DNA of 64,000 nt from Xiphias gladius (lineage: Eukaryota > Chordata > Actinopteri > Istiophoriformes > Xiphiidae): contig NW_024401811.1 in NCBI RefSeq assembly GCF_016859285.1, forward strand, positions 1 through 64,000, given 5' to 3'. Position numbers and translations under genes: made by a program. Positions 4,934-59,290 of this stretch are shown one piece after another. Under the pieces are notes generated by a model. That model worked only from the letters and a program-made list of their open reading frames with translations. It was not told where the DNA came from and ran no database searches. Each line of letters starts with the position of its first letter. The stretch's first letter is position 1.

Positions 4934-7460
4934 ATGTCCCTCCCCCTCCTCCCCCTCCTCGTCCTCCTGCCAGCGTTCGGCCGGTGTCAGCCCGGAGGTC
5001 AGTTTGATGTGTGTCGGTCTCTGCGCGACTCAGAGGCGGGGCCAGGCTGGGAGTTCTACGCCTGTCAGCCTCCACCTGCCAACATGAAGGAGGTGATGCA
5101 GATCAGAGTCGACCCCCCTGGGATCACCTGTGGAAACCCACCTGAGAGATTCTGCACACTGGTCAGTCACACACACCTGAAGATAGAAACAGACTGAAAC
5201 ACAGATAGAAACAGAAACAATCAGGTTTATAACTCCTTAGTATCTCTCAGGCTTTTTTCCCTTTGACATATCAAAATGAAGGGTACACCTGACTTGTTGT
5301 CTCAGGTTGTAAAGGTCTGTAAATGTCAGCGCTGATTTTCTCTGAATATTATTTCATTCGAATAATATGAAGACTGAGTCCTGCAGTGGTCAGATACTTT
5401 ACTGAGTTGACAGAATGACCAATGGGGTATGACATGCAACAGAGGGCCCGGACTGGACACGAATCTGTAACGATTCAGCATCAGACCTTTGGAGGTACAT
5501 GTTCTATAATGATGAGTTAGTCTTTCTCCTCTCTCCTGTTAAACTTTAGTTTCAGTTCATGATCCTCAGTAGTGTTTTATCATGGGAAATGGGATTCCCA
5601 GGAATCTATTTGCCAGTTCTCAGGATATATAATAGCGGGAAACGGGGAAAAAAATAGTTACATTTAAAGCATAAACCCAAAAGGCTGATATGTACAAGCT
5701 ATGCGTATCCCTATTCCTTTCTGAAATCGTAATTCCTTTACGTCCTCCCTCATGGATGCAATTGCTGGAGCCGGCAGTGAGCACTGATCCAAAACTTTTT
5801 TAGCCAACATAAATAGCCTACAACAAAATGTCAGCCAACAGCCTTGCATGGAAATACTTTAAAAGAGTTAACAACAAAGATGCAAAGTGAATGACTGATA
5901 AAATTTGCTGAAGGTTCAACAAGCCATTTGCAGCAACCTTTGGAATCTCAGCGTGCCAAAACTTAAAGCCCACCAAAGCGTGCAAGAACACGGGATTCAT
6001 GCCTTATCCAAAAACACTTCCCTGTACTGGCAGAGATGGCAGCATATGACGGATTTACATTCAACAGTATGGTGAAATGCACCTATCTCAGAGCAGCACT
6101 GAAGAAAGACAGTCCTAATCTCCCAAAGAATCCATCTTAAATCTCACAACAAGTTAGAGCTAAGGGAGAAAAAGATAAGGCGGAGAAGTTACAAGACTTG
6201 GTGAAGTGTGGTGCACACTTTTCTCTTACAATTGATGAGTACCCTTCTTATCAGAACAAAAGATTCATTAGCGTGAATCTACATGTTTTGGAGACATACT
6301 GGAACCTTGGCATTATCAGGGCTCAAGGAACCATGCCAGCCGGGATAGTGAAAGAGTTGGTGGACTCTCAGCTACAAAGCATCAACTTGAACATGAATGA
6401 CCACATTATCTGCAGCACTACAGATGGAGCATCGGTGATGGTGAAGTTTGGCAGACTGGTGCTGCCCAAGAAACAGCTATGTTACGTGCATGGTGTGCAC
6501 CTGACTGTCAGATGTTCCTTACTGCCACCGAGAGGCTGCCTGTGCCAGCCATATTGAGAGCGAAGATGAGGAGGCTGAGAGAAGAAATGTGCAGCAGTGT
6601 GGAGCGGGTCATAATATTGCCTGGTACTTCCACAAGGCCACAGTCAGGAACCCAGAGGTTTATGCATATTTCTCGTTGTTGCATTTAGTGTTGTTTGAAA
6701 TATGACCGATGCCTTTTGACGGTCACTGTAGTTATGCCTTAAAATCAAGTCAATTTCCTGGGACTCCCAGATTAGAGTGCTTCTGCACCTGGAACAGAAA
6801 ATGGACCTCTAGCTGGAAGTCTAAAACACAAACTCCTGTGGGTAAAACTGGACTAAATACAAAGTTTTAATGCTGACTGACTATGATAGACTCACTGTAA
6901 ACAGACATGCAGACAATCGTTAGCCTAGAAACATTAAGGCTACCAAGGTCCCACAATTCACTCTCTATTGAGCAGGGCTGTCCCCATTCAGACAGATTAT
7001 CTGGTGTTGGGAAATCCTAAAAAAAATTCCACTGTCTCAAACATAATGTTCAGAATATTATATTGTCTCATATTCAGGCCAATAATCAGTGTATGACAGA
7101 AAAAGATCAAAATTTCTTCTCTCCTGTCAATCATCTCACAAGCCCTCACATTTATCAGGTGATATCAGTTTGGTACCACTGAACACACATCTACTGTACT
7201 AACACACACACAGTACCACACACTCTCCTGCTGTTTGTCTAATTGTTCCTTTGGGAAACTGAAATCGTGTCTGAATTATTGATAAATGTAACAGTTGTAA
7301 TGAAGCAAAAATGAAACTCAGAAAAAGATTCAAAATGACAAAATACACAAAACACATCACAAACATATTTAAACTGTGAGATTTAAACAACAACTATACA
7401 CCTCTTTAAATATAAACAAATACATGTAAAACTCAGTAAAAATGTGTGGTGTGCCCCAAC

Positions 7461-7521
<61 letters not shown>

Positions 7522-10500
7522 TTACTCCTGACGACCACTGACCCCCACACCGACAAATACTTGCTTATAATGCTGTAGTCACTACAAGCTGATATTGTGT
7601 TGTAAGTTCTGATATTCTGGAGGATAATGTTGACAGTGAACAATTTACTGATACGTTCATTAACAATATGTTAACAACTGTTCCATTAAACTTTTATACA
7701 CAGGAAGAGGCTTGTTTTTCAGTCTGACATTTTCGGACTGGCGTATCAACTCAAAATGTTTATGAGGACACAGGTGAAAACAGGTGGTTCTAAATAATGT
7801 TTTCAGATCCTGGACTGTGTGTAGCAGAAATCCTGTGATTGTTTTCGAACCTTTCTGTTACTGTACAGATCCAGTTAGGGAGTTTTAACTAACCTGCTGT
7901 CCTCATACTGACATACTTACTTTACCAGATATGAAGGAATCTCAATGGTTAGAGTCAGTCAGTGTTAGTTTGTGTTGGTTAGTCATGGTTGGTTAAATGT
8001 AGTTTAGTAGTAGACTGTCTTTCAGCTGCAGTGTGACAGTTGGCAGCAGCAGCTGAAGTTAAAGGATAAACCTCTAACACACACACTAATCAGATTAACA
8101 TCAGTGTTAATCCATCACTGCACGTGTGTGTGTGGGTCAGTGGGACAAACACACACACATAGGACCTCTAAACACATAAGACTCGTTGGTAATAACTCGA
8201 TATTCTGCTTTTTTATGAAGGCGCAGGTTTGGAGGCTACGGCTATGTCTGGTCTCCAGGGCTCATCGTAGGCTCTTTTCTTTTAAGCAAAAGTAGCGTCT
8301 CGTGTTTCATCCGGAACTGTGCCACAGACTCTCCATGGGCAGGATGAATATGCTACACAGGGTCAGCTCATTATGTCCAATGATAGATATCATTACCAGG
8401 AGTCTAGTTTCTGTCTTCCCACCCTTCAGTTATGTGTGTGTATATACAGGTATTTGTATCTATGTGCACATGTGTGTTTGAGTGTATATGTATGTAAAAA
8501 ATGTGATAGTCTCATAATATTTGGGGATAAATAAAGTGGTTTACCTGGCATGAATATCATAGGGTATCTAAATATTTGTATTACAGCTGCCTACTGGTCT
8601 TTTATGTGTTTTTATGTTTGTTTATTTATTTTTTGTTTAGATGATGATAAATTATAATTATTAAATTATAAAAAATTATAAAAGTTGTTTCTGAAAAACA
8701 TTCTGAATTTACGTGATCTGGTTGCTCAAAATTATAATAAATTTTTATATCCTCTAACGTCTAATGTAGTCGACAGCTAAGTACATAAATAGTTTGGTTC
8801 TATGTGTCCTCAGGAGAACCCGTACCTGTGCAGTGATGAATGTGATGCGTCCAGCCCTGACCTATCTCACCCCCCTCAGCTGATGGGAGACAGGGAGAGG
8901 GGGGGCCTCATCACCTATTGGCAGACAGTCACATGGTCCCGGTATCCTGAGCCGCTATTGGCCAACATCACTCTGTCTTGGAACAAGAGTCTGGAGGTGG
9001 TCGATGACATCACTGTCACCTTCGAGTACGGCCGACCGACCAGCATGGTGCTGGAGAAGTCCATGGACAAAGGTAATTGGTCTGAGCTGGGGGGTGGGGA
9101 GATGCAGCTTTTCCCCTAGTTAGCCATCTCAAACTGTACAAACTGCACCAAACCATGAATAAACATAATACAAATACAGCAAGAGATTGTCACACCAATC
9201 TCTGTTTTTTTATTATCCTGTTTTATTTCAGGGTTGACCTGTGTTGTACTTTCAGATATGAGAAAAGTTAAACAACCTTCAAACTGCACAGAGAATAGAA
9301 TTAGTCTGATCAAGGCAAAACTCCAGGAACACCTGTAGTATAAACAACAACTTTACTGTGAGACCAGCATGTTTGGACTTGTGGACTTCATCAGGGTCAA
9401 ACTTACTTTCTACAGATGTTTAGATATCGGCCTTGTTTCACTGCTTCCTGGTCAGAGCTGTGTTCAGCTGCGGCTGATGGGTTTACATCAGCTGCTGCTG
9501 TTTTCACAGATAGTTGTTAGAAATGATGGTGAACGGAGATGCAAGCAAAGGCCCCCAGCTGGATACAGACCAAGGACTCTGGTACCTGGTCTGGTCAGAT
9601 TAACAAACTCCACTTTGGAGATACTACGTAGAGAGGGAACAGCCAAAATACAGAGTGGCTTCCTCAGATATAAAGCAAACAAGAAAGGGAGGGAAGAAGA
9701 ATATATGAAGCGCACTCCATAACATCCATAATCTCAATGCACTTTACAGAGCAAGGTCAAGACCTTACATATCTATATATATAAAAATTATAGAAGGATA
9801 ATAGATGTAAGTAATCTGTCTTTTTCTTTTCAGGTGTGACATGGCAGCCATATCAGTACTATGCTGATGACTGTCTGGAGGCATTCGGCATGTCGCCTAA
9901 AAGAGTCTCTGATTTAGCACCGAGTAATTTAACCCGGGTTATTTGCACCGAGCAGTACTCCCGCTGGGTCGGAGCCAAGGTGGGTAACTGGGCCTTATAC
10001 TGGTCATACTAGGAAACAGATAGTATACTGCAAACATTAATGATACATACTGTATCCAGGGATACTGTAACACTGGTGTAAAAAATTCATCTGCGAACGG
10101 ATTTGTATTTACTGTTATTTAAATTATCTGGGAAACAGTGGGAATCAGCAGTGTTTGATTAATAGGACAAGTGTTTTTGTACCTGACCAACAGCTGCAGA
10201 GCAGGTTCACTGACTGATACTGTTTGACCATTAGGAGGAGAAGATCGTGGTGTTTGAGGTGCGTGCTCGGTTCGGGGTGTTTGCAGGTCCGAAGTTGATC
10301 AACATGGACGCTCTGTACACCCGGATGGAGACCATGAAGGGTCTGAGAGACTTTTTCACCTTCACGAACCTCCGTCTGAGACTCCTCCGTCCAGCACTGG
10401 GAGGGACTTATGTCCAGAGAGACAACCTGCTGAAGTACTTCTACGCTATCTCGAACATTGACATACCAGCCAGGTAATAAAATTAACCTAACAGCCGGCA

Positions 10501-11849
10501 GGTGACTTCATCCACAAACTAGTAATGTCTAACCAGGATAGAGTAGTCATGACCTAACAGCTCCACACAGCTGACCGGTCACTGAGTGAGGACGATGTGA
10601 CGTCAGAGTGTCTGTTACAGAAAGTCTGATGTCAGACAGACATACGATGGGCACTGTGTTTAAGAATACTGACACCTGAAACATGTGTCCCTGTGTGTGT
10701 GGGTGTGTTCCTGCAGATGTAAGTGTAGCCTGCATGCATCTGAGTGTGTGTTACGAGATGCGACGCTGCAGTGTGACTGTGACCATAATACGACAGGACA
10801 GGACTGTCAGCGCTGTAGTCGAGGGTTCAAATCCCGCAGCTGGAGACCTGGATCATACCTACCCCTTCCCAAAGGCACTGCCAACACCTGTACGTATCTG
10901 TACACACACACAAACACATAGACACACACTCACAGGTAGATACGTTACACATTATGTATTGGTGAAACTAAACAACCATTGAACAAATGCATGGCTAAAC
11001 ACGGGAGGGCCAACGCCTTTCAATTTATACATAAAAAAACCTGAGTGGAAATGATGGAAATTTAAAACAAACTAAACCAGTTGAAAACGTGTTTCTTGCT
11101 GACTGAGGTGTAACAGTAGCTGTGTAGATAAAAGCCAAAGTGAAACAGACTGAATGAATAAACACTGTACTCATCAAAGGAAAACATCAAATCTGTGTTG
11201 AGTGATGATGGACTGGAACCTTCCTCACATTAACACAGGAAACCAACAGAAACGTCAGGTTCCATCACTTTCTCCACACGGTTTTCCATCATCTGAGCTT
11301 TGACTGCAGATCTTTTAATGACCTCGTTTCCCTACGTCCTCTTCTTCTGTGGTGGTTAAATGGCAGCTACTGGAGAATCAGCTCCACCAGCTGGTTATCA
11401 GCTCATAATCACACAGCAGCAGTGGAGGGAAACAAGACTTCACTCATGTTTTACTTTGAGCATTTTCTCATAATTCAATTAAAGGTTGAGCTCCATTGAT
11501 GAAACTTGATTGACATGTTGTATCTTTTTCAGGTGAAGCAGCAGAAACAGCAGCCAGTAAGTAGTGCTCACCTGTCTGTCTATTCACCTGTCTGTCCTTC
11601 ATTTCAGTCACACCACCACCCAGCCCCTCCTGTCTTATAGTCACAGATATAGAAATGGTAGTAACATGGTCAGTGTTGCATCATGGGAACAAATCTGAGC
11701 TTTGAGTCCTGGAAATTTTTTAACATCACTGTGTATTTGATGTGTTTCACATCACATCATAGTAGTTCATAAAAGACACAACAGTTTCACTCATTGTGAT
11801 CCAAAACAAATCAAATCAAAACTGATTAATGCAGTCAGTCAGTCAGTCG

Positions 11850-11885
<36 letters not shown>

Positions 11886-14800
11886 TTTCAGATTTAAAAT
11901 AACATGCAACAGTTGAAATTAAAATTAAATCAATATGAAGACTGATCAGTTGTATTACATCATTACTAATCACTCTGACCGGTCACATGGTCGAACATGA
12001 GTCGTTCAGTTAAGCATTGGGTTGCATTCTGGGAGGAAATTTAACGTTAATCTGTGGTTCAGAGCTAGTTAACATACTGACAGATGGTGTGTGTATGTGT
12101 GTTTAATCTGTGATCATCTGTTTTAACCTTGGCGATCGCCTCACACACACACAGACACACACACACACACATACTCAAGCACATGCACACACACTTTTTA
12201 CTTCTATCTTTGTGAAGACACTCATTGACATGATGCATTCCCTAACCACCTCACCCTGACTTTAACCTAAACCTGATTCTAACTGAACAAAATGTCCTAC
12301 ATTTTCCATAGAGTAGACAATAGAACAAATAGAACAAAGAGCAAGATCTGTAGACCAATGTGATTTCTAGGTGTTATAGAGAAGATGTAACAGACAGTAT
12401 CCACACACCTCTGGTCAGATATAGACACAAAGTCTCCGATATGAAAGTTTATTTAGCTTTAAATTATTAAAAGTTTGTCTCACCTCCTGCAAAAATAAAA
12501 CTGAAACACAAGCAGGCAGGAAACTGTTCAAAGTAAAAACATGGATTGGAATTTCCCCAGCAGTGTGTGGAATTGGTCGCTATTAGAGAAACATTAGAGT
12601 CCAGTAAAGTTCTCAGCAGAACAGAACTGGGTTTTATTACCTTCTGAGATGTGATTGGTTAGTTGGGTTCAGGTGACTTTGAGGCGGTAAAGTGACGGCT
12701 GCAGTAGACTCCAAACTAAATTGAGTATATAAGTGAATTAATGAACTGACCACTAAAAGGAGGCTCTATGTTTGGTTTCCTCAGTTTGTGCAGGTTAGCT
12801 CAGAAAACAACAGTGTCATGTTTGTTTCTATAATAGTTATTTTATCAGAGAGGCAGCACACTGACATGAGCACTGTAGGTCACACACCTCCTGGTCTCAA
12901 CTACGCATTTTGTGGAACTGCACATCAAGCAAGCTCAATGGTTGATTCACCACCAGTCAGGACCCGGGTTTGGAACAAAGACGAGAACAAAAGTAAATGT
13001 ACTACATACAATTATAAACTAAACGGCCACATAAACGTTATCTGGGTGACCACTGTCCACGTTTGCCTACATGCCCAGAGAAGCAGAATTCCAGCTTTAG
13101 GTTATGAGGCTAAATAAATGGAGAATAAATGAGTGTGATGAGAGGGCAGGATGTAAATTTACTGCTGACCTTAACAGCATTGAGATTTATTGTTGCAGCG
13201 ACTGTGTGAACTGGAAGGTTTCCTGTGAGTAGGCAGAAACGTTCAGAGAATGTTGGGGAAGTAGGAGGTTCAGGTGGAGATGTAGTTTAAAGATGCTTTA
13301 AATAAATAATTGAATAATATAGCAGGTTTTATTAAACCAACATCACTGGGCCAGACCAGCCGAGATTCTGAAACTGACATTTCTCTGACGGTGAAGATGC
13401 TTACATCTCATTGAACTGAGATCATGGATATATTGAAAGACTCAGAGGCCAGTAAAATCAGCTCCTGTATCGTTTCCCCCACTGTAATTCCTGTAGTTGC
13501 CGTGGTAACCTGGGAAGCCACGGCAGCAATTTGAAAAAGTTGAACCATCATCATCATCATCACCAACTCAGACGGCAGGAGAAAAGAGCTGTGTGCATAA
13601 AGATAGGCAGCTGCAATCACTCCTGAAAGAACGTGTAGGAAAACATGATGATTCCTCCATTTGTTTGAAACTGCACTTGCTGTTGCTATCCATGTTTACT
13701 TTTGAAAAAAGTAAACACAACCTTTTAAAGATGTCACTGATGACAGTTTGACAAGCCCAGCACTATTAATATTAATTTTCTAACCTGGGATCCTTGTGCT
13801 CTCTGATATTTCTGCCAGACTCTTTACCAAAGGGTTGGTAGGATCGGACAGTAGAATTATACTACTTTTACATCAGGGGTGGAAGATTATCTTTTCCACC
13901 ATTCTTCTCTACAATGAGTTTGTCACTGTCATGATTAAAAAGAAAATAATGGTAATAATGCATCATTATTACCACCACCAAGAAGGTGGTGGTAATACCA
14001 CCTGTCTGTTTATTTGTCAGCAGGATTACACAAAAAGTACTGAATCAATTTGCACCAAATTGGAATGATGGGGCATGCCCCTTGGAAGAATCCATTAAAT
14101 TTTGGTGTGGAACTGGTTAAAAGAGTGGATCCAGGATTTTTTTATTACATCCTTAACATTGCAAGATAGGGCATTTTTCGACATTTTCGTCAATATCTGG
14201 CCTTGCTGGAGGTATCCACATATATCTGATATTTGCATCTCATTTATTTTGTTGTCTACTGTCAGCCTGTGGGCCTGAGAGGGATTTGGGAGGCGGGTTT
14301 ATGGGATTCCTCTTATTATCATGTCATTAAAGTAAAAACATCCCAGTGTTTAATGTTCTGCAGAGTTCAATCAGTGTCTGTAGAAAACAGAAAACTGAGA
14401 TTCACTAAAGAGACGTAACTCTTCTTCTCTGACAGCGGCTGGTGACTCTAACTCAGCAGCATCTGATAAACCCTCTGCCTCATCAGATGGAGTGACTGAC
14501 ACTACTACTACTGACAGTACCAGTGCTACCACTACTGAGTCTCTTACCACTAATAGTATTACTACTGCATCTACTACTGACAGTATTATAACTACTGACA
14601 CTACCACAACTGAAGCTACTATAACTGACAGTAATACCGCTATTGACAGTATTTCTACTACTAGCACTGCTGTAACTATTGGCACTACTATTTCCACTAC
14701 TGACCTTACTATTACTATAGATAGTAAAACAACTATTTTTATGTACATTTTTACTACTGATGCAGTCTATACAAGCCCAGGAAGTCCTCTTATTGTTACA

Positions 14801-17800
14801 GATACAGCCAGTACTTCTACTACCACTGACACATGGGGTATTACTACTGCAGAAACAAGTACCAGTAGTGATACTACATCTGTATTTGACACTGACAGTG
14901 TTCCTACTATCAGTACTTTCATGACTGATACTAGTTTTACAACTTACTTCACTAGTACTAGGGATACTGATGACTTTCCTCAAGCTGGTGTAGAATCTAC
15001 TGCTACAACAGTTGACACTGGTACCACAGTTTTTACTGCTGCCAGTAGTACTGTTAGTACTACAGGTTCTGATGCGTTTCCCGACTTAAGCAGTACAGTA
15101 GGACCTACAGTGGACACAGCTCCATCCGGTGGTCCAGCACTGGATACTGGAGACACTCTGACGAAACCAGCTTCCACAGTACCAGACACCGTCATTCCAA
15201 GTGCCACTAGTAGCACCTCCAGTCCCACCAGTAACACCAACACCAACAGCCCCACAATCCCAGGCTCCAGTACTGACTCTGAGGTGTCTATTTCTGACCC
15301 AGTGACTCCACCCTCTGACTCCACCACTTCACCAGTCCGCACAGACTCCGCCCTCTCTGAGATTGATACAACCAACCTGATCACCAGTGCTTCCCTATCT
15401 GCTGATGATACAACATCAACCGGATTCCCGCCTCTAACGACCATCCCGGAAATAACCCCACCCAGTAATAGGGCTCCATCTGGAGATTCTCCAGCCACTG
15501 CATCAGCCCCAACCACTCAGACTACAGATACTTCACTGACAGCAAGAGCTGACACAACTTCTCCTGATGATCCTCCATACACTCTGTTAGATACAAGACC
15601 TCTTGATGGGCCTCCTCTTAATTTACCTCCTCGAAATGTACCACCTTCTGATGGACCTCCTCCTGATCTTCCTTCTCCAGATGTACCTACTTCTGCTGTA
15701 CCACCTCCTGATGGTCCTCCTCCTGATCTTCCTTCTCCAGATGTACCTACTCCTGATGTACCATCTACTGATTTACCTCGTCCTGATGTACCTCCTCCTG
15801 ATGTACCATCTCCTGATGGACCTCCTCCTGATCTTCCTTCTCCGGATGTACCTACTCCTGATGTACCATCTACTGATTTATCTCCTCCAGACGTACCTCC
15901 CCCAGATGTACAACCTCCTGATGTACCCTCTCCTGATGTGTCTCCTCCAGATGTACCTTTTCCTGATGTACCTTCCCCTGATGTATCATCTGCTGATGTA
16001 CCTTCTCCTGATGTACCTCCTCCAGATATACCTTCCCCTGATGTACCACCTTCTGATGTACCTTCTCCTGATGTACTCTCTCCGGATGTACCTCCTCCAG
16101 ATGTACCGCCTCCAGATGTTTCTCCAGAAGTGCAATCCTCTAGGACTCCAGACTCTCTGATAGATGTACCTCTTCCTGATGTACCTTCTCCTGAAGGAGC
16201 ACCTTCTGAAGTATTTCCTCCTGGTGTTCCCCCTCCAGCTCCTGATGCTCCTGTAGAGTCCTTTTCACCTCCCTTTGAAGAAGAAAGAGGTAATGCCGCA
16301 TCAGATACAAACTCCACCACCCTAGATCGTTCTGACTCTGCTGGTGATTTGGCCCCTGTGGACTTCACCTTCCCTTTTCCAGAAGATACCAACTCAGTTG
16401 AACCTGGACCAGACTCTGGACCAGATTCTGGACAAGCTTCTGGTCCAGAGCCTGTCAGTGATCCTGGGATCATTCCAGATGATTCTCGTGGATCTGTTGA
16501 TGCTCCTGGATCAGAGTCAGTTGATCTTGGACTGAATTCCATCTCAGCAGGACCAGACGCAGGGGAGAGACAAAACAGTGGACCGGAATCAACTGGACCA
16601 GATTTTCCTAGTCCAGATCGTGCAAGTCCTGGTCTAGAATCTGAGCCAGATTCTCCTCCAGTGGTAGATGATCCAGGAGTAGGGTTGTTTCCTTCTGCAG
16701 CTCAAAAGGAAGGAAAGTCTGGAAAAGATTCAGCTGCTGGTGGACCATCAGGAGGGTCAGATTCTAACGAAAAGGAAGACTCTAAACAAGAGAAGACAGG
16801 AGAGCAGAAAGAGGAGAAAGGTACAAAATGGAGAGCTGTGATTGGTCAGATTAGATTTTATCCAGATTGTAGTGTACAGTATATAGAATAGTATTGCCTG
16901 CACATTCAGAGATTCTTCCTAGTGTACTTTTACAGCTGTGTAAAGCTAGTACATTTCTTTTTGACCTTGGAAAGAGCAGCTTGACAGAAAAAAGCCATAA
17001 AAATAGTGCAACTTACTTGTTTCAAAAGTTTTCAACTGCCTCAGTAGATGGAGTTGCCCAGTTGTCATAAAGTTGTCCTGTGATTTAAGAAGATGTGACT
17101 GAAAGCTTCAGAAACAAGTGGGTCCTTGTCTTGAGAATTTCTTGCCAATACATCTAGGTACTTCTAGCTGTATCAAAACAAAACAACAAAATGATCTTTT
17201 ACGGCAGTAAATGGTGTTCACTGTGATAGATCACTGACATCAAGCAGGTTTCAAGTCTGTGCACCTTTATTTTTATAAAGGAAACTAGATTCATTACTGC
17301 CCTTCTACTTCCAAATTGCTGCTGGTGCCTCCATGTTTTTTAGAGGATGTAAGTACATATGGCAAACTGGCAGCAAGTAAACTGGGAGGATAAATTAGGT
17401 AAAAGGCCTAATGTTTGAAGGTCTGAAAGTGTCTTTTACAAACAGCTGATATGCAGAAAGCTGAAAGACTGTGTAAAGTGTAAAGTTTCTATCAGAGCAG
17501 CTGCAGGACAGATTGTTTAATAAGCGGCAGCTTCATGTGTTGTAGCTAGCCCTCAAATAAACTCTGTTTAGGGTTCATACATATTTAAATCCTCTACTGC
17601 TTTGTTCAACCCAACAGCTGCTGAGGCAAAAGAGGAAACAAAAAAGGAAACAGTAGATGAAACAAAAAAAGAAACCAAAGAGGAAGGACAGAAGGAGAAA
17701 GAAGACAAAGGCTATGAGAAAAAAGGTACAACATGTAGAAATAGCCGTAAACCTGCCACCTACTGGCTAGCATTAGTAACAGCAGTATCAGCATTAGTAG

Positions 17801-19512
17801 GAGTAGTAGCTTTAGTAGCAGTGGTAGAAACTGTGCTTCTTATAAATATATCTGATGCCACTCACTTCTCATTTGTAGTTCAGAGCTGTTATTGGTAGTT
17901 AGTTCAGTGGTGACCCCCATTAACCCCTGAATTTAGAATTAGGGTTAGCTGCTACCTGCCCGTTGCCACAGTTACACACTTTGCTTTGTGTCCAAAGCGA
18001 CCCAGAAGATTCTGATTCCAGGAGGACCAAAGTTCAGTCAACTGTCCAAAATTGCCTATGTCACCTTCCAGGGTAAGACTGCCTCCAACCAGCTGACTCC
18101 TTCACCTGTATTGGCCCTGCCCCCTGACAGATATGTCTTCCCATGTATAAATAGTCAGTCCTAGATAAACTGAAGGTGTCTACGGACACTTTGTCATCGC
18201 TGTTAATTCTTTCCACAAACATCCAACAAAGTTACAGTAGATGTCTGGACACTAGCTCCTCTCCCTTTGTAACTCCTCCTCCTCCTGCTGTGATTCACTA
18301 CAGTTGGGTCACTTTCAGCGTCAGGGTCACCGGCAAGAAATAAAAATGTACACAAACTTATGTAACGATGTGATCTGCCACAATAGAAAGGATCATCACG
18401 GTCAGACTGAACTGGGTTGTGACTGGTTGAAAACCGCAGATCTGTTGCCATCTCCATAAATGTTCATGTTGTCTCACCCGTCCGAATGTTTTATTTCCTC
18501 CTTGCTGTGCTCTGGAGCTGTGGACAGGGTTATGTACAGTGTTTGAAGCTTCTTTGTCAACTGTCAAAAGTTGGTTTGTTTGTTACAAATAGTTTGTTAT
18601 AAGCGTCCCCACTTCAAAGGGAGAACAGAAGGAACAAATCAAACAACCAACAAATAGGAACTGATACATCAGTTATGTGATGATACATTACATTATGAGC
18701 CGATACTTTAGTTACGTTACTTCAATTGTGTTAGTTATATTACATTACTTCAGTTACACTGCAATATGTTATGTTACTTAAGTTACATTAAGATACATTG
18801 TTTCAGTTATGATACATTACTTATGTTACAATACGTTATTTCAGTTACATTATGATACATTTCTTTAGCTATGTTAGAATACGACGTGTTACTTAAGTTA
18901 CATTATGATTCCTTGCTTCAATTATGTTACAATACGATAGGATGGGATATGTTACAATGTGATTTGTCACAATAGGATACGATATATGTTACTTCAGTTA
19001 CTTCCTGTTATATGACACTACGTTATGATTTCTTAGGTTATGTTACAACATATTGTAACTAATGCAACTTCTCATAAGAGGTTACATTATGTGACATTAC
19101 TTAATTTATGTTACACTATGTCCGTTATGTTGCATCATGTTACTTTACAGTATGTTACTGTACTATGTGTTACATTACATTACAACATACTATTTCACGC
19201 TACGTTATTCAGTAGATAGTTTTATCTCCAGGCGTTGTGCCAAGTGTGTTTGTGTATTGCAGGACTGATATCAGGTCTTTTTCTTTGTGTGTTTCTGACT
19301 CTCTCTCTGTCTCTCTGTGTCAGACTGTGAGTGTAACGGTCACTCCAACCGCTGCAGTTACATTGACTTCATCAACGTGGTTACATGTGTGAGCTGTAAA
19401 CACAACACACGAGGACAGAACTGTCAGTACTGTCGCCTCGGTTACTATAGAAACACCTCACTGTCACTCGACGACGAGAACATCTGTGTGGGTCAGTAAC
19501 ACACACACGCAT

Positions 19513-19556
<44 letters not shown>

Positions 19557-20403
19557 CACACACAGACCTTAATGAATCGAAACAACAAACAAAAACAGCA
19601 TGATTATATCATTAAATCTATAAAAATTCAGTGCTTCTACTAACATTATAACAATAATACAAATAATTTAATAATACCAGTAGTAGAAATAACAACAAAA
19701 ATAATATTATTAATGATAATAATAATAATAACAATAACAGTGTCTGTTTTTCTCTGTCAGAGTGTGAGTGTGATGCAGACGGCAGTGTTTCTCCTCACTG
19801 CTCTGACTCTGGTCTCTGTCAGTGTAGAGATGGAGCCACAGGGAGGCGCTGTGACTCCTGTTTGCCTGGATACACCCGGAGAAGAGGCGGGGCCAGCTGC
19901 ACAGGTACAGACAGTGATGGGGCGGGGCTTCAGTAACACCGCAGGACCTGATAGAGTGGGTTTACCTGTGTCAGCTGCCTACAGAATCACCTGTGTCCAG
20001 ATGACCTGTATTGTCACACAGTGACATATAAAACCACTCCTCGTGTTATCAATCATGTTACTAATTATTGATTATAATCAATAATTCCTGTCTCCGCCCT
20101 CAGTGAACGTTTGTGACGAGGAGCGTTTGGTTTGTCAGAACGGAGGAACCTGTGTCGACTTCCAACGCTGCGTCTGTCCGGACAGTTTCACAGGTAAGTA
20201 CCCACCTGGCGTGAGCGGGGCCGGTTCATTTCATGGGTCAGGTGTTGTTGGTGGCATCTGATGATGTTATTGTGTGTGCAGGTTCATTCTGTGAGCAGAG
20301 CATCTGTCTTAAGAAGGGTGGTTGCCTCAACAACGCCGAAGGCTCCTCCTCCTCTCTGACCTTACACCTTTACCTGTTGACCCTAAGTCTGATCACCTCC
20401 TGA
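4934..20403 (+). CDS. ntng2: netrin-G2-like GPI-anchored axon guidance protein with a giant mucin-like insert
   Basis: Netrin-Gs are GPI-linked axonal proteins that bind NGL ligands on dendrites. Exons joined in frame: 4934-5161, 8814-9072, 9834-9979, 10235-10473, 10717-10889, 11533-11556, 14436-16820, 17618-17725, 17998-18072, 19324-19491, 19761-19904, 20104-20193, 20282-20403 (4161 nt, 1386 aa). Order: signal peptide (about 1-18); laminin N-terminal domain to about 290 (motifs [31 protein letters not shown]); first laminin-EGF 291-348; insert 349-1212; second and third laminin-EGF 1213-1316 ([19 protein letters not shown]); EGF about 1317-1346; Ser-rich and hydrophobic GPI tail. [15 protein letters not shown] favours netrin-G2 over G1. 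The start lies in ACCATGT just before the signal peptide. Normal netrin-Gs are about 530-550 aa; the excess is the exon at 14436. All exons from the first laminin-EGF on are phase 1-1. Confidence in the family is very high, in the paralogue label moderate. Confidence 0.93.
5590..6769 (+). mobile_element. hAT-family DNA transposon fossil
   Basis: Frames between about 5900 and 6600 encode broken pieces typical of hAT/ZBED transposases. The best is 6198-6557: a segment with FSLTIDEY, then [13 protein letters not shown] and [16 protein letters not shown], which match the catalytic-core region of such transposases. Stops and frameshifts interrupt it, so it is inactive. Candidate terminal inverted repeats: TGGGATTCCCAGGAA at 5590-5604 and its complement at 6755-6769, 14 of 15 positions matching. 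No matching 8-bp target duplication is visible. It sits in intron 1 of the netrin-G2-like gene. Confidence 0.65.
7464..7519. repeat. (CA)n microsatellite
   Basis: Uninterrupted dinucleotide CA run of about 28 units in intron 1 of the netrin-G2-like gene. Confidence 0.98.
7520..8813. other. rest of netrin-G2-like intron 1
   Basis: No exon or named element recognised. Short TG-rich tracts near 8115-8160 and 8430-8490. The intron ends with TGTGTCCTCAG at 8813. Confidence 0.5.
11557..14435. other. intron before the mucin-like exon
   Basis: Non-coding. Contains a (TTAG/TCAG)n tract at 11832-11884, a CA-rich stretch around 12140-12195, a fragment of a widespread fish inverted-repeat element at about 12200-12300, and an ATC run at 13546-13562. 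The frames at 12788 and 13796 have no domain or splice support. Confidence 0.5.
12200..12305. repeat. fragment of a teleost MITE-like repeat
   Basis: The stretch with TTGTGAAGACACTCATTGAC, then CATTCCCTAACC and CCCTGACTTTAACC, resembles the interior of the element found complete with inverted termini at 21955-22184 in the next gene (GTCCCC...TCAATGA, GGTTAGGG-like interior). No termini remain here. Confidence 0.4.
14436..16820 (+). other. ntng2: 2385-bp mucin-like/PDVP-repeat exon of the netrin-G2-like gene
   Basis: Acceptor TTCTTCTCTGACAG ends at 14435 and donor AAAG|GTACAA lies at 16820/16821. The phase-1 entry and exit keep the frame from the 24-nt exon before it to the Lys/Glu-rich exon after it. 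It encodes about 795 residues in three zones: Thr/Ser/Asp-rich (to about 15560, [14 protein letters not shown]-like), Pro-Asp-Val-Pro pentapeptide repeats (about 15600-16130), and an acidic Ser/Pro/Gly segment ending in Lys/Glu. It contains no Cys-rich module. The Thr/Ser/Pro composition suggests dense O-glycosylation and an extended stalk; that is inference. If the donor is not used, translation stops at 16889-16891, giving a product without the later EGF modules and without the GPI tail. Confidence 0.85.
15600..16130 (+). repeat. in-frame 15-bp tandem repeat (PDVP[S/P])
   Basis: About 35 degenerate copies of a 15-bp unit of the type CCTGATGTACCTCCT, coding Pro-Asp-Val-Pro-Ser/Pro. A larger internal duplication is visible: the segment starting at 15714 recurs almost base for base at 15819, a 105-bp (7-unit) step. 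The opposite strand is also open here (Gly/Thr/Ser/Glu repeats), as expected from the codon pattern. Confidence 0.9.
18610..19200. repeat. degenerate GTTACATTATGATACATTACTTCA tandem
   Basis: Nearly 600 bp built from diverged units of the form GTTACATTAYGATACATTA(CTTCA), in the intron between the 75-nt exon and the second laminin-EGF exon. Units differ in length and sequence, so it is old satellite-like DNA rather than a young microsatellite. Confidence 0.75.
19499..19562. repeat. (CA)n microsatellite
   Basis: CA run starting 8 bp after the donor of the second laminin-EGF exon (GTCAGT at 19492). Long CA runs so close to a donor can affect splicing; that is inference. Confidence 0.95.
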
Positions 20404-25500: not shown

Positions 25501-26697
25501 AGGTCCAAGGAGACTGTCCACACCGTTATCTGCAAGTAATCAGATTGGATTTGTGCGTCCCGACATCACCAACCTCTCTGCATGGGTTGCTGTGGTAACG
25601 ACGTAGGTGTCAGTAACAACGTAGCTACCGTCGCTCTGGATTTGACGTCGTCGTCGTGCGTCGCCTTGCTAGTGACCCGAAAGACGCTTTGAAATATGAG
25701 ATTGGCGGTCAGAGCGTCTGGACTGAGACGCATTTATAGAGATCTGATTGGAATCTCATTTCAAAGCACCTCCAAATGTGGTTTTGCAAAAATCGCATTT
25801 CATGTGGTTTGTGCTGTGCAGACTTTCTAGAATCAATCTGGATCAAATCTGGATATGTCAAAAAACTGATTTGAGCTGGCAGTCTGAACAAGGCCCAAGA
25901 ATCCAGCAGTCTCTCTAACAGAGCTTCAGAAGTCTTCTGGACATGTAATTATAGGCTGTTTCTTCTCAGTGTGCGGTAAAATAATTACTCAATATTTTCT
26001 AGTAATCAATCTTAACCCTGGGTAAAACTATCCTCCATGTTTCCGAAAGTTTTTTATCAAGCAGATTCATTCTGTCCTTTATAAAACAGAGTTTGGATGT
26101 ATTTTTGTTCTGTGTGTTCTTGTGTTGAGAACCCTCACCTGAACCAGAACACCTGGAACAATCTGGAGAAACTGTGTCGCTCTCTGACCAAACGTTACCT
26201 CAACGTCTATGTCTGCACCGGCCCACTCTACCTGCCCAGGTAACCTCTTCTTCTTCTTCTTCTGTGGTGTCTGAGCGCTTAGGGTGAGAAGAAGCAGGAT
26301 GCCATAATTCGATGGGTGTATGTGTTTCAGGCAGGAAGCTGATGGGAAACTCTACGTTCGTTATCAGGTTATTGGACGAAACCACGTCGCCGTGCCGACG
26401 CACTTCTTCAAGGTGAGTCTTCACCCAGCAATGAGGATGATGATGATGTCACCTGTCTCTATGTCAGCTGTGAATGTCTCCTGTCCTGTGTCTCCACAGG
26501 TGCTGATCCTGGAGCAGGTGGACGGCAGGGGGGTGGAGCTTCGGTCATATGTTTTACCAAATGAACCAATAGATGAGAAGGTTCCTCTGGAGCGTTTCCT
26601 GGTTCCAATAGAAACCATCGAGAGAGCATCGGGACTTCTGTTTGTTCCGAACATCATGAAGAGAAACAGCAGCCTGCAGGCAATCACCAATAAATGA
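21766..26697 (+). CDS. endog: endonuclease G, mitochondrial
   Basis: EndoG is a DNA/RNA non-specific nuclease of the mitochondrial intermembrane space that moves to the nucleus in cell death and degrades paternal mitochondrial DNA. Exons: 21766-21936, 24102-24295, 25191-25332, 26130-26239, 26331-26412, 26500-26697 (897 nt, 298 aa), close to the human 297 aa. All joins are GT/AG and in frame. The N-terminus MRRWCRTGATLAFGAGLGA is Arg-rich and hydrophobic, as expected for mitochondrial targeting. The nuclease signature DRGH is at residues 140-143 (His143 the general base), preceded by MKYGFPS and SYDPRTR and followed by FYLSNVSPQ and NQNTWNNLE, which carry the metal-ligand Asn region. PTHFFK and PLERFLVP mark the C-terminal half. 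It appears intact. Human ENDOG has few introns, so six exons here is worth noting. Confidence 0.96.
21955..22184. mobile_element. MITE-like element in endog intron 1
   Basis: About 230 bp bounded by inverted copies of TTTTACTATATTCGTGGGGACC: left arm from 21957, with one base changed, and right arm at 22161-22183. No coding capacity. The interior (GGTTTAGGTCAGGGTCAGGG) is typical of this abundant fish repeat. It begins only about 20 bp after the exon 1 donor. Confidence 0.7.
22440..22735. repeat. common teleost interspersed repeat with internal (CA)n
   Basis: Starts AATGGTAAATGGACTGCACT and ends CTACCTCCTGAGCCAGAGCC, a combination I recognise as a high-copy fish repeat, with a (CA)n run at 22510-22538. 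The end looks tRNA-like, but no intact A and B boxes are present. Located in endog intron 1. Confidence 0.6.
22741..24101. other. rest of endog intron 1
   Basis: AT-rich non-coding DNA. 23640-23690 (CTTGAAGAAGGTCTCTGACC...) resembles the tail region of a fish retroelement. No exon seen. Confidence 0.45.
24455..24660. repeat. fish interspersed repeat fragment
   Basis: Moderately GC-rich block with GGGGCATGGCCTTTCCGAAG and CTGCCCCTTCGGGGCTTGAA, unlike the surrounding intron and similar to recurrent fish repeats. No open frame. Family not assigned. Confidence 0.35.
25530..25905. repeat. probable non-autonomous DNA transposon in endog intron 3
   Basis: Contains CAGATTGGATTTGTGCG early and AATCTGGATCAAATCTGGAT late, with a central GATCTGATTGGAATCTCATT, a layout I associate with fish hAT-type MITEs. 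Clear termini were not found. Confidence 0.3.
26689..26694 (+). terminator. endog: AATAAA overlapping the endog stop region
   Basis: The last two sense codons AAT AAA immediately precede TGA (26695-26697), so a canonical poly(A) hexamer abuts the stop codon. If used, the 3' UTR would be only about 10-30 nt. Confidence 0.4.
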
Positions 26698-51176: not shown

Positions 51177-53681
51177 GGTGGAGGAAGTACTTAGGACCTT
51201 TACTGAAGTAAAAGTACCAGTACAAAGATAAAAAAAATATTCTACTACAAGTAAAAGTCCAGCAGTCAAAATCCTATTTAAATAATCGGACACATTTATT
51301 TTTATCTTCGTTTAGTTAGTGTATCACAGTAAAAGTATTTCATGTAGTTAAAGTCTCATAGTAAAGTACTTCATGTAGTTCCAGTATAACAGTGAAAGTA
51401 CTTCCTGTAGTTCCAGTATCACAGTAATAATACTTCATGTAGTTAAAGTATCACGGTAAAAGTACTTCATATAGTTAAAGTATCACAGTAAAAGTACTTC
51501 ATGTAGCTAGAGTATCACAGTAAAATACTTCATGTAGTAAAGGTATCACAGTAAAGTACTTCATGTAGTTAAAGTCTCACAGTAAAGTACTTCATGTAGT
51601 AAAGGTATCACAGTAAAGTACTTCATGTAGTAAAGGTATCACAGTAAAAGTACTTCATGTAGTTCCAGTATCACAGTAAAAGTAGTTCATGTAGTTCCAG
51701 TATCACAGTGCCAGTACTTCCTGTAGTCCCAGTATCACAGTAAAAGTACTTCCTGTAGTTCCAGTATCACAGTAATAGTACTTCATGTAGTTAAAGTATC
51801 ACGGTAAAAGTACTTCATATAGTTAAAGTATCACAGTAAAAGTACTTCATGTAGTTAAAGTATCACAGTAAAAGTACTTCATGTAGTAAAGGTATCACAG
51901 TAAAAGTACTTCATGTAGTTCGTATCACAGTAAAAGTACTTCCTGTAGTTCCAGTATCACAGTAATAGTACTTCATGTAGTTAAAGTATCACAGTAAAGT
52001 ACTTCATGTAGTTAAAGTCTCACAGTAAAGTACTTCATGTAGTAAAGGTATCACAGTAAAGAACTTCATGTAGTAAAGGTATCACAGTAAAAGTACTTCA
52101 TGTAGTTCCAATATCACAGTAAAAGTAGTTCATGTAGTTCCAGTATCACAGTGCCAGTACTTCCTGTAGTCCCAGTATCACAGTAAAAGTACTTCCTGTA
52201 GTTCCAGTATCACAGTAATAGTACTTCATGTAGTTAAAGTATCACGGTAAAAGTACTTCATATAGTTAAAGTATCACAGTAAAAGTACTTCATGTAGCTA
52301 GAGTATCACAGTAAAAATACTTCATGTAGTAAAGGTATCACAGTAAAGTACTTCATGTAGTTCCAGTATCACAGTAAAAGTACTTCATGTAGTTCCAGTA
52401 TCACAGTAAAAGTACTTCATGTAGTTCTAGTATCACAGTACCAGTACTTCCTGTAGTCCCAGTATCACAGTAAAAGTACTTCCTGTAGTTCCAGTATCAC
52501 AGTAATAGTACTTCATGTAGTTAAAGTATCACGGTAAAAGTACTTCATATAGTTAAAGTATCACAGTAAAAGTACTTCATGTAGCTAGAGTATCACAGTA
52601 AAAATACTTCATGTAGTAAAGGTATCACAGTAAAGTACTTCATGTAGTTCCAGTATCACAGTAAAAGTACTTCATGTAGTTCTAGTATCACAGTAAAAGT
52701 AGTTCATGTAGTTCCAGTATCACAGTGCCAGTACTTCCTGTAGTCCCAGTATCACAGTAAAAGTACTTCCTGTAGTTCCAGTATCACAGTAATAGTACTT
52801 CATGTAGTTAAAGTATCACGGTAAAAGTCATGTAGTTAAAGTATCACGGTAAAAGTACTTCATATAGTTAAAGTATCACAGTAAAAATACTTCATGTAGC
52901 TAGAGTATCACAGTAAAAATACTTCATGTAGTAAAGGTATCACAGTAAAGTACTTCATGTAGTTCCAGTATCACAGTACCAGTACTTCCTGTAGTCCCAG
53001 TATCACAGTAAAAGTACTTCCTGTAGTTCAGGAAGTACAGTTCACTGTGCAGGGACCTGTGTGCTGTGACTGGTCTCTGATTCTCTCTGACGTGATCAGA
53101 TCATTGATCCTGAGTCACGGAGGCTTCGGCAGCGTTTTACTGGTGGAGCTGCTCCAGGTGGAGCTGCTTTTAGCTACGTCATAGACAGGGAGAGAGTTCA
53201 GTCCACTGGTTCCCAACCTGGGGGTCGGGCCCCTCCAGAGGGTCGCCAGGTGAACCTGAGGGGTCGTCAGATGATTCATGGGAGAGGACAGAAGAAGAAA
53301 GACAGTTCTGATCCACTGATCTGGATTCAGTTGCTGGACTTTTCTCTGATCTTTGATTTTAGTGAACTATTGATCATTTGATCAATTATTGAAGTGAAAC
53401 CATGTAAGACGTTTAGAGGAGAAATGAACTGAAAACAACTCAGAGACTGAAACGTGACAAGGAGACACAACTACACACTGACTTTTGTCTGGGGATTTGT
53501 ATTTAAGATTTTTGTGTTGACAGATAAATGTAGTGCAGTAAAAAGAAAAATGTTTCTCTATGAAAAGTAGATAAGTAGTATAAATTAGCATAACATGGAA
53601 ATACTCAAGTAAAGTACAAGTACCTCAAATTTGTACATGAGTAAAGGACTTTTGAAATGTACTGAGTTACTTTCCTGCACC
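51177..53681. mobile_element. AGTAAAAGTAC-type inverted-repeat element expanded by an internal minisatellite, copy 3
   Basis: Left end GGTGGAGGAAGTACTTAGGA and right end, as complement, GGTGCAGGAAAGTAACTCAG are imperfect inverted repeats like those at 27628 and 41559. Near both ends are AAGTAAAAGTACC / GAGGTACTTGTAC words. Between them lies the minisatellite at 51318-53035. Copies 1 and 2 are only about 400-460 bp, so about 1.7 kb of this copy is expansion. Confidence 0.6.
51318..53035. repeat. 32-bp minisatellite with higher-order repeats
   Basis: About 54 tandem copies of a ~32-bp unit of the type ATCACAGTAAAAGTACTTCA plus TGTAGTTCCAGT. Variants (CATATAGTTAAAG, GTAGCTAGAG, GTGCCAGTACTTCC) recur in fixed order: the GTGCCAG/GTACCAG variant appears at 51708, 52151, 52438, 52725 and 52976, two intervals being exactly 287 bp (nine units). 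No gene inside. Confidence 0.95.
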
Positions 53682-57000: not shown

Positions 57001-59290
57001 CTTCCTCCTCCAGTCCGGTCTCAGCTCTCCATAGACTCGGACTCTGACATGACGGAGAGTTCTGGACTCCTGCAGGAAGTCAGCATCCTACCTCCCCAGA
57101 GGCCACGCCCCCTCATCTTCTTCATCATTGGTGAGAGAAAAAAACACGAAACCAGTACAAACCAGAACCAGAACCAGTAAGAGGTCTGCACCAGAACTAG
57201 TAAGAGGTCTGCACCAGAACCAGTAAGAGCTCTGAACCCTGTCTCAAAAATTATCCCTGTGTTTGATAATAACTTCTTAGACCAAGACTCAATTAAACCT
57301 TATGATGATGTTTATTAACCTCTGTGAACTCTGACCTCCTGTTCATGTTTGCTGACAAAGCAAGGATGTTGCGGTGCATGCTGGGGGGGCAGCGGGGGTC
57401 ACTGGTATCTATTATGTCCACAGGTGGACCAGGAAGTGGGAAGGGAAGTCAGACAGCGAGGTTAGCTCACTGCTTCGGCCTCAGAGTCGTCTCATTGGAC
57501 AACCTGCTCAGGAAGCAGCTGCTAAGCCATGCCTCCCCCAGCAGGAAGTGGGAGGTTGTTTCAGAAATGATGAATCATGGAGAGCTGGGACCACAGGTGA
57601 GTCCAAAAACATTTCACCTGAACCTGAACCTGAAATCATCCCCGAGACTGTCAAGAAATCTGTGCTTGCAGGAGGAGACAATCTCAGAGCTAAGGAGGCA
57701 GCTGATTGGTCAGCAGCACATCAGAGGGTTCATCGTGGATGGATTTCCTCGAGATGTCCACCAGGCTCTGAGTTTCCAGGAGCAGGTACCGACTAACCAG
57801 AGAGTAGTCTGTACCTCAGCAGGACTCAAGATTTCTGTACATACATATCTGTAGAAAGGTTGTTACTCTTTAAAGATACAGGTCATTTGTTTGAATCATT
57901 TTGAACCCGCACAGCCTCAACCTGAAATACGAAAACAAACTTTATTTGAGATCAACCACAAGCAGACAATAGGTTGGTAACTCAGTTTGGGGTTCACCGC
58001 TCAACTCTGCAGGGGCTCCACACAACAGACCAGCCCCAGTGGGAAACTAATGGACAACATTATAAACAATAATTAAACAATACACAGTAATGTTGAAATG
58101 CAGCAGTGACGATGATAAGTGGAACCATCACCCCTGCCCTCCCTGCAATCAGATGGGCTCTCCTGACCTGGTGATACTGCTGCTCTGCTCCAATGAGACG
58201 CTGAACTGCCGTCTGCAGCAACGAGCTGCTCGACTCGGTCTCCTGGGAGACAGTAACCACACCTTCCGGAGACGCTTGGACACGTTTCGGAGAGACATCG
58301 TCTCCATCAGGAGATACTACAGACAGACATACCTGCTGACACAGGTACACTTGCGGATACAGGTACATCTGCTAATACAGGTACATCTGTTCAAACAGGT
58401 ACACCACTTGACATATGCACACCAGTGCACCTGTTCACACCTGTACACCTGCTGACAGAGATACACCTTCTGATACAGGTACACCTGCTGACATATATAC
58501 ACCTGTTCACACGGGTACACCTGCTGACACGTACACCTATTCACACAGGTACACCTTCTGATACAGGTACACCTGCTGACATATATACACCTGTTCACAC
58601 GGGTACACCACTTGACACGTACACCTATTCACACAGATACACCTTCTGATACAGGTACACCTGTCGACACAGATACACCTATTCATACAGGTATGACAGG
58701 TGTGTCTCCAAAGGTCACGGCAGCATTTAAAACAGATTTAAAACAGTCAGATCTCCCACAGAAGTCTTGACTCGAATCTCATCTCAGTGATCAATGGATT
58801 CACTCACAGAATGAAATTATTCAGTATGTTTCACATCAGGTTTAACTTTAATGAACTTTGAGGTGAATTCACCTGTTGACTTCAAGCGAATTCACAGTCA
58901 CAATCAGTCCTTTGTGTGCGTGCAGGTGGATGCAGACAGAGACGAGGATGAGGTATTTGCTGATCTGAGTTCAGTCATAAGAGAAAAATTGCAGCTGAAG
59001 GATCGGTCAGGTACTGATCAGTTCTCCATATGAGTGATGTGTTATGAAACTGTTTCTGATTTCACTTTACAGTAATGTGAGTGTGATATGTCACTGTATT
59101 GAACACAGTCAGCTGTTTATAATAATAGATGGTCAGTGGTTTCTATGATAGAGACAATTAAACCACCAATTGATTGATTGATTGATTAATTGATTGATTT
59201 ATCTCTCTGTCTCCAGATCCCGTCGGTATCCCAGAATGCAGCAGTGTTGTCCCTGATGTCCCCTTTAACATCAGATCTGTTAATCAATAA
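54051..59290 (+). CDS. ak5l: adenylate kinase 5-like protein with a single kinase domain and a proline-rich linker
   Basis: Adenylate kinases interconvert ATP + AMP and 2 ADP; AK5 is the brain cytosolic form with two kinase domains. Exons: 54051-54110, 55322-55910, 57014-57130, 57424-57596, 57672-57785, 58153-58344, 58926-59010, 59217-59290 (1404 nt, 467 aa), GT/AG and in frame. The N-terminus (KEYLSDHLVPQLLESLLTGL, PEDPISFLQSCL) matches the AK5 dimerisation/docking start. Residues about 75-216 are Pro/Thr/Ser-rich. SIDSDSDMTESS leads into the kinase: P-loop GGPGSGKGS (256-264), SRKW, VDGFPRDVHQALSF (335-348), a short LID with RRRLDTFRR, and VDADRDEDEVFADL near the end. Key residues look intact. 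After DRSG the protein ends with 24 further residues and a stop; the second kinase domain of AK5 is absent and none is seen downstream. Symbol tentative. Confidence 0.88.
54187..54275. repeat. AGTAAAAGTAC-type element, one-ended fragment
   Basis: GTGGTGGAAAGTGCACTCTA followed by GAGGTACTTGTACTTTACTC repeats the terminal words of the elements at 27628, 41559 and 51177. Only one end remains; in intron 1 of the ak5-like gene. Confidence 0.45.
54990..55295. repeat. degenerate (ACAG/GCAG)n tract
   Basis: Purine-rich tandem of CAGACAGGCAGA-type units ending about 25 bp before the acceptor of the proline-rich exon of the ak5-like gene. Confidence 0.85.
58341..58700. repeat. tandem array copying an exon/intron junction
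   Basis: Immediately at the donor of the exon ending 58344 (CTGCTGACACAG|GTACAC) the intron continues as diverged 17-19 bp units of the same sequence (ACAGGTACACCTGCTGAC). ACAG|GTA recurs at about 58359, 58377, 58395, 58475, 58545, 58563, 58650 and 58687. Confidence 0.9.
59168..59200. repeat. (TTGA)n microsatellite
   Basis: Tetranucleotide run just upstream of the acceptor of the last ak5-like exon. Confidence 0.85.

Follow-up and report, generated by a model that had tools for sequence, protein, structure and literature searches.

Two netrin-G2 genes of Xiphias gladius with long predicted linkers at a known cassette site

Netrin-G and NGL form a vertebrate-specific synaptic adhesion pair. 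Spliced stalks are found in CADM1 and in the muscle-specific domain of NCAM, where cassette exons alter a flexible segment that joins the folded modules to the membrane. To our knowledge, stalks of this type measure tens of residues and contain neither a single giant exon nor an array of tens of duplicated exons. Human netrin-G2 has 530 residues and seven coding exons (PMC6849109). In human netrin-G1, the site between the first and second laminin-EGF modules, LE1 and LE2, can carry inserts of 42 and 22 residues encoded by exons 6 and 7 (PMC6408995). The LE1-LE2 junction is thus an already known cassette site, and what is new in the genes described here is the scale of the insert and the presence of an exon array. 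No report of an expanded netrin-G linker was found by title in the open-licence PMC literature.

The stretch of DNA analysed here, hereafter the window, comprises the 64,000 nucleotides from position 1 to 64,000 of contig NW_024401811.1 of Xiphias gladius (assembly GCF_016859285.1). The gene rebuilt from it has 12 coding exons with 4086 nt and 1361 residues, without stop or frameshift, and all the exons starting from 11533 through 20282 begin in phase 1 (Table 1). Like human netrin-G2, the encoded protein has a laminin head, LE modules and an EGF-like module, and it may share the end of the GPI type; it differs in size and exon number from the 530 residues and seven coding exons of the human protein. 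When compared with solved structures, the head best matches netrin-G2 (1.3e-164), followed by netrin-G1 (8.8e-130) and netrin-1 (3.4e-37), which agrees with the netrin-G2 identity proposed in a previous sequence-only reading of this DNA. Pfam matches of the protein without its linker are to laminin and EGF-type families only (Laminin_N 7.4e-47; EGF_laminin 5.9e-21, in 3 stretches; EGF also matched), and a hydrophobic tail, which by eye looks like a GPI signal, closes the last exon.

Table 1. Positions of the coding exons and other features in the window
Feature	Position	Strand	Description
Coding exon 1	4934..5161	+	start codon, hydrophobic leader, start of netrin-G N-terminus; netrin-G2 match
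Coding exon 2	8814..9072	+	laminin N-terminal domain, part 1
Coding exon 3	9834..9979	+	laminin N-terminal domain, part 2
Coding exon 4	10235..10473	+	laminin N-terminal domain, part 3
Coding exon 5	10717..10889	+	LE1, minus last two bases of final Cys codon
Coding exon 6	11533..11556	+	24-nt linker exon, phase 1-1, supplies rest of LE1 Cys codon
Coding exon 7, giant cassette	14436..16820	+	2385 nt, phase 1-1, Cys-free
15-base in-frame tandem repeat within giant exon	15636..16119	+	32.3 copies, 75% matches, 0% indels
Coding exon 8	17618..17725	+	108-nt Lys/Glu-rich cassette, phase 1-1; donor 91.0th percentile
Coding exon 9	19324..19491	+	laminin-EGF module 2 (LE2)
Coding exon 10	19761..19904	+	laminin-EGF module 3 (LE3)
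Coding exon 11	20104..20193	+	EGF-like module
Coding exon 12	20282..20403	+	EGF-like module end, hydrophobic tail, stop codon
Neighbour gene pieces	26308-26697, 57309-57854, 61714-62664		matches: Endonuclease_NS (endonuclease), ADK (adenylate kinase), EF-hand

The short LE1-LE2 linker that is usual for netrin-G2, and which we treat as usual and not as defining, gives way in the full model to 838 residues. The enormous expansion of the linker and the position of a giant exon between LE1 and LE2 had both been proposed in the sequence-only reading, and both stand; its description of the linker as a single exon does not, given that three exons of 24, 2385 and 108 nt contribute. Compared with the 42 and 22 residues of the human netrin-G1 inserts, the insert amounts to 795 (+36) residues in the window gene and to 1224 in the sister gene described below. 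The 13 exons and 4161 nt counted earlier could not be reproduced. Outside the giant exon, the threshold used left a single candidate of 75 nt, the open stretch 17998-18072, the ends of which resemble phase 1-1 splice sites; it may explain the 75-nt difference between the models and was left out of ours, and no relatives of it were found in the C20, C5 and C14 stretches searched. Without splicing at the 17725 donor, the frame continues through 17726-17895, by way of a hydrophobic stretch resembling a membrane span, to a stop; this read-through could represent a shorter, differently anchored form or be due to chance.

As for the surroundings, an adenylate kinase gene close to NTNG2 would agree with the human 9q34 neighbourhood. 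The stretch at 6000-7400 resembles a transposon, and its relatives on other contigs are 71-88% identical; a 32-base tandem repeat occupies 51306-53028 (54.4 copies, 87% matches). Neither RNA families, at gathering score, nor tRNAs were found in the window.

The giant exon had been described as a continuous open exon of 2385 nt with an acceptor, a donor and phase 1 at both ends, and this is what we find. The stop-free frame around it runs from 14399 to 16891, with 830 codons from stop to stop. Splice sites were scored with a consensus table, and percentiles are relative to sites of the window. On this scale the acceptor (tctctgacag^CGG) stands at the 99.5th percentile among all AG sites of the window, and the donor after 16820 (AAAG^gtacaa) is weak, at the 91.0th percentile, comparable with the donors of the conserved LE1, LE2 and LE3 exons (89.0, 92.4 and 93.3). 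The exon encodes a Thr/Ser-rich block, the PxPDV block of 15-base repeats, an Asp/Ser/Gly/Pro-rich block and a Lys/Glu-rich block, in that order. No Pfam family was matched in the 830-residue frame at E up to 0.01. A DNA-level search of the 690.8-Mb genome, which skipped simple repeats, found no second copy or haplotype of the exon; of 53 DNA matches to it, the 52 besides the window itself are confined to the ACT-repeat part (query 293-562).

Four netrin-G loci were recognised in the genome among the best candidates (101 of 134 were scored): the window gene (C471) and the loci named here C20, C5 and C14. Identity to the window gene is 83% for C20 over query 1-216, 57% for C5 and 56% for C14. 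Two ntng2 and two ntng1-like copies would fit the teleost genome duplication. In the laminin domain, dN between the window gene and C20 is 0.13 and dS 1.64, indicating that the window gene is under constraint. The introns 9073-9833 and 9980-10234 split this domain in the window gene, and the C20, C5 and C14 copies have it in a single open exon; intron gain is rare in vertebrates, and the two introns are a possible case of it.

In the sister ntng2 gene on C20, the interval between LE1 and LE2 spans ~25 kb. A 30-nt candidate exon would complete the LE1 cysteine there, as the counterpart of the 24-nt exon of the window, and two larger cassettes, 276 and 279 nt long, are open and phase 1-1, alternative splice sites being possible for them. 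Downstream of these cassettes lies an array of 27 duplicated exon-like units (18541811-18550864), 26 of them intact. An HMM gave 28 plus-strand hits in the array. When their boundaries were placed from the sequence with no constraint on length, 25 showed both an acceptor and a donor, and all 25 bounded units are divisible by three and open. The other hits are a 99-nt unit (18549982-18550080), open with an acceptor chosen in frame, a unit at 18543188 without a donor, and the tail of a preceding unit at 18549303. The intact units measure 96-165 nt, with 11 different lengths, all divisible by three, and total 3117 nt. In contrast, the 25 gaps between successive intact units, one of which contains the broken unit, are distributed over the three classes of length modulo 3 (3, 14 and 8 gaps in classes 0, 1 and 2).

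The C20 array bears the marks of coding constraint. Across all 26 units the pooled dN/dS is 0.47, and pN is lower than pS in 289 of 325 pairs, higher in 32 and equal in 4. When the set is reduced to 15 non-redundant units, the coding frame gives a pN/pS of 0.57 (bootstrap range 0.40-0.81, with 0.06% of replicates reaching 1 or more) and the other frames give 0.88 and 1.38, so that the ratio is clearly below one only in the coding frame. The acceptors of 23 of the 26 units lie below the 90th percentile, which may reflect regulated or partial inclusion, or units that are not used. Some blocks of ~1.5 kb recur almost unchanged in the array, and therefore the copy number may still be shifting. A genome search with one unit gave 24 matches, all 24 on C20, and no relics of the units were detected in the window by HMM at E up to 1. 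The 108-nt exon of the window gene gave no support for an origin in common with the C20 units, its best score of 46 lying below the mean of 52.7 for shuffled sequence (P 0.92).

A direct-repeat scan (at least 70 nt) of the ntng1-like copies, covering C5 777001-797000 and C14 20986001-20996000, revealed no repeat family. By our own count the C5 copy retains a 60-nt phase 1-1 exon, which resembles a human netrin-G1 cassette. In C14 (20982384-20995441), the search matched LE1 and the last EGF exon and gave no LE2 match; LE2 may have been lost, have diverged or have been missed there.

It is rather unlikely, in our opinion, that the open frame of the giant exon is a by-product of low-complexity intronic repeats, which the normal transcript skips so that an 8-residue linker is left. 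The frame does survive such skipping, since on paper the 24-nt exon joins LE2 in frame when the giant and 108-nt exons are omitted, and the weak donor after 16820 points in the same direction. When five blocks of the exon were shuffled by dinucleotides, the frame was still open in 0, 2, 0, 0 and 192 per 1000, and this is too easy a control for trinucleotide repeats; indeed, 5 of 11 ACT-repeat control loci elsewhere in the genome (two pairs of which adjoin) are stop-free over 660 nt in the matching frame. ACT-repeat DNA is often open by itself, and thus the Thr/Ser block alone is little proof of coding. Nor do the 15-base repeats single out the coding frame: their pN/pS is 0.55 in frame, close to the 0.63 of one of the other frames (the third gives 3.72), third codon positions are the most variable with P 0.157, and we dropped them as proof, even though the absence of indels across so many diverged copies is compatible with coding constraint. 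Against a by-product, however, the frame continues across blocks without ACT repeats, which stay open in only 2/1000 and 0/1000 shuffles, the phase matches at both ends, and the acceptor is strong. Furthermore, the sister gene has expanded at the same place with exons under coding constraint, which would make a coding role of the giant exon more likely. That the gene is decaying, or that its scaffold is misassembled or foreign, so that a working gene of the species would not have this structure, appears very improbable, and we think contamination of the scaffold unlikely. The gene does lie on a 376-kb contig instead of a chromosome-sized one, the relatives of the transposon-like stretch reach no more than the identity given above, and the two laminin-domain introns are particular to this copy; yet its 4086 nt have remained free of lesions, its laminin domain is strongly constrained, and no other second ntng2 appeared among the best candidates scored, this copy completing a 2+2 set with the two ntng1-like ones.

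The description of the giant exon as mucin-like is borne out in part. If a mucin-type composition is taken to require 40% or more Ser+Thr together with 5% or more Pro per 100 residues, this rule is passed by 254 of 794 residues, namely exon residues 130-383, and Ser and Thr make up about half of the first 220; the remaining parts, Thr/Ser-rich but Pro-poor, made of PxPDV repeats, Asp/Ser/Gly/Pro-rich or Lys/Glu-rich, fail it. Overall the exon contains 17.8% Pro, 15.6% Thr, 15.2% Ser and 12.5% Asp, no Cys and just one N-glycosylation motif. O-glycosylation may stiffen part of the linker. A true mucin stalk, as envisaged in the sequence-only reading, would need dense O-glycosylation to function, the glycans making it stiff and keeping the head well away from the membrane; this would accord with the qualifying third of the exon and with its single N-glycosylation motif, but two thirds of the exon fail the rule, and the linker in the same place on C20 (1224 residues with the two larger cassettes) is of another kind, with 25% Glu, 13% His, 11% Lys, 20% Ser+Thr and 3% Pro. 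We regard such a stalk as quite unlikely. Because of the composition of the C20 linker, O-glycosylation is also unlikely as a property common to both ntng2 genes. Both linkers, which in our models contain no Cys, fall on the disordered side by charge-hydropathy, the giant exon only slightly (0.436 against a boundary of 0.460), and the common property is length and disorder.

Taken together, our results favour, with some reservation, a genuine netrin-G2 gene, which is one of the two ntng2 copies and owes its long linker to simple repeats that expanded in frame within a single phase 1-1 cassette. As translated from the model, the long form would place all of its linker residues between LE1 and LE2, and the giant exon, lacking Cys and predicted to be disordered, would act as a long flexible spacer that ties the NGL-binding laminin head to the part formed by LE2, LE3, EGF and GPI anchor. 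Given that the cassettes are each phase 1-1 and that skipping leaves a short linker in frame, the length of the spacer is probably set by splicing. The window gene would in this respect be similar to CADM1 and the NCAM muscle-specific domain, in which cassette exons change a flexible linker. In terms of gene structure, the C20 sister has come to this layout through a small exon that was duplicated in tandem and is now present in 26 intact copies. As the sister genes share this layout and arrived at it by different routes, the target of selection has probably been how long and how disordered the linker is, and not a particular sequence or mucin-type glycosylation.

A bolder proposal, which we put forward tentatively and which may well prove wrong, is that netrin-G2 is a length-tunable tether in this lineage. 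The sister genes would have independently built linkers of ~800 and ~1200 residues at the LE1-LE2 cassette site, one by a single repeat-built exon and the other by 26 phase 1-1 exons, the inclusion of which would determine how far the NGL-binding head extends; the C20 version, rich in His and with its repeated HxHETHGHK, might sense zinc or pH at the synapse. If this is true, the length of the adhesion complex would no longer correspond to the cleft width as it usually does, its head being carried by a spacer hundreds of residues long. The use of different genetic routes by two sister genes points to selection for linker length, and the 26-exon array would offer a tractable example of a synaptic protein tuned by the duplication of exons.
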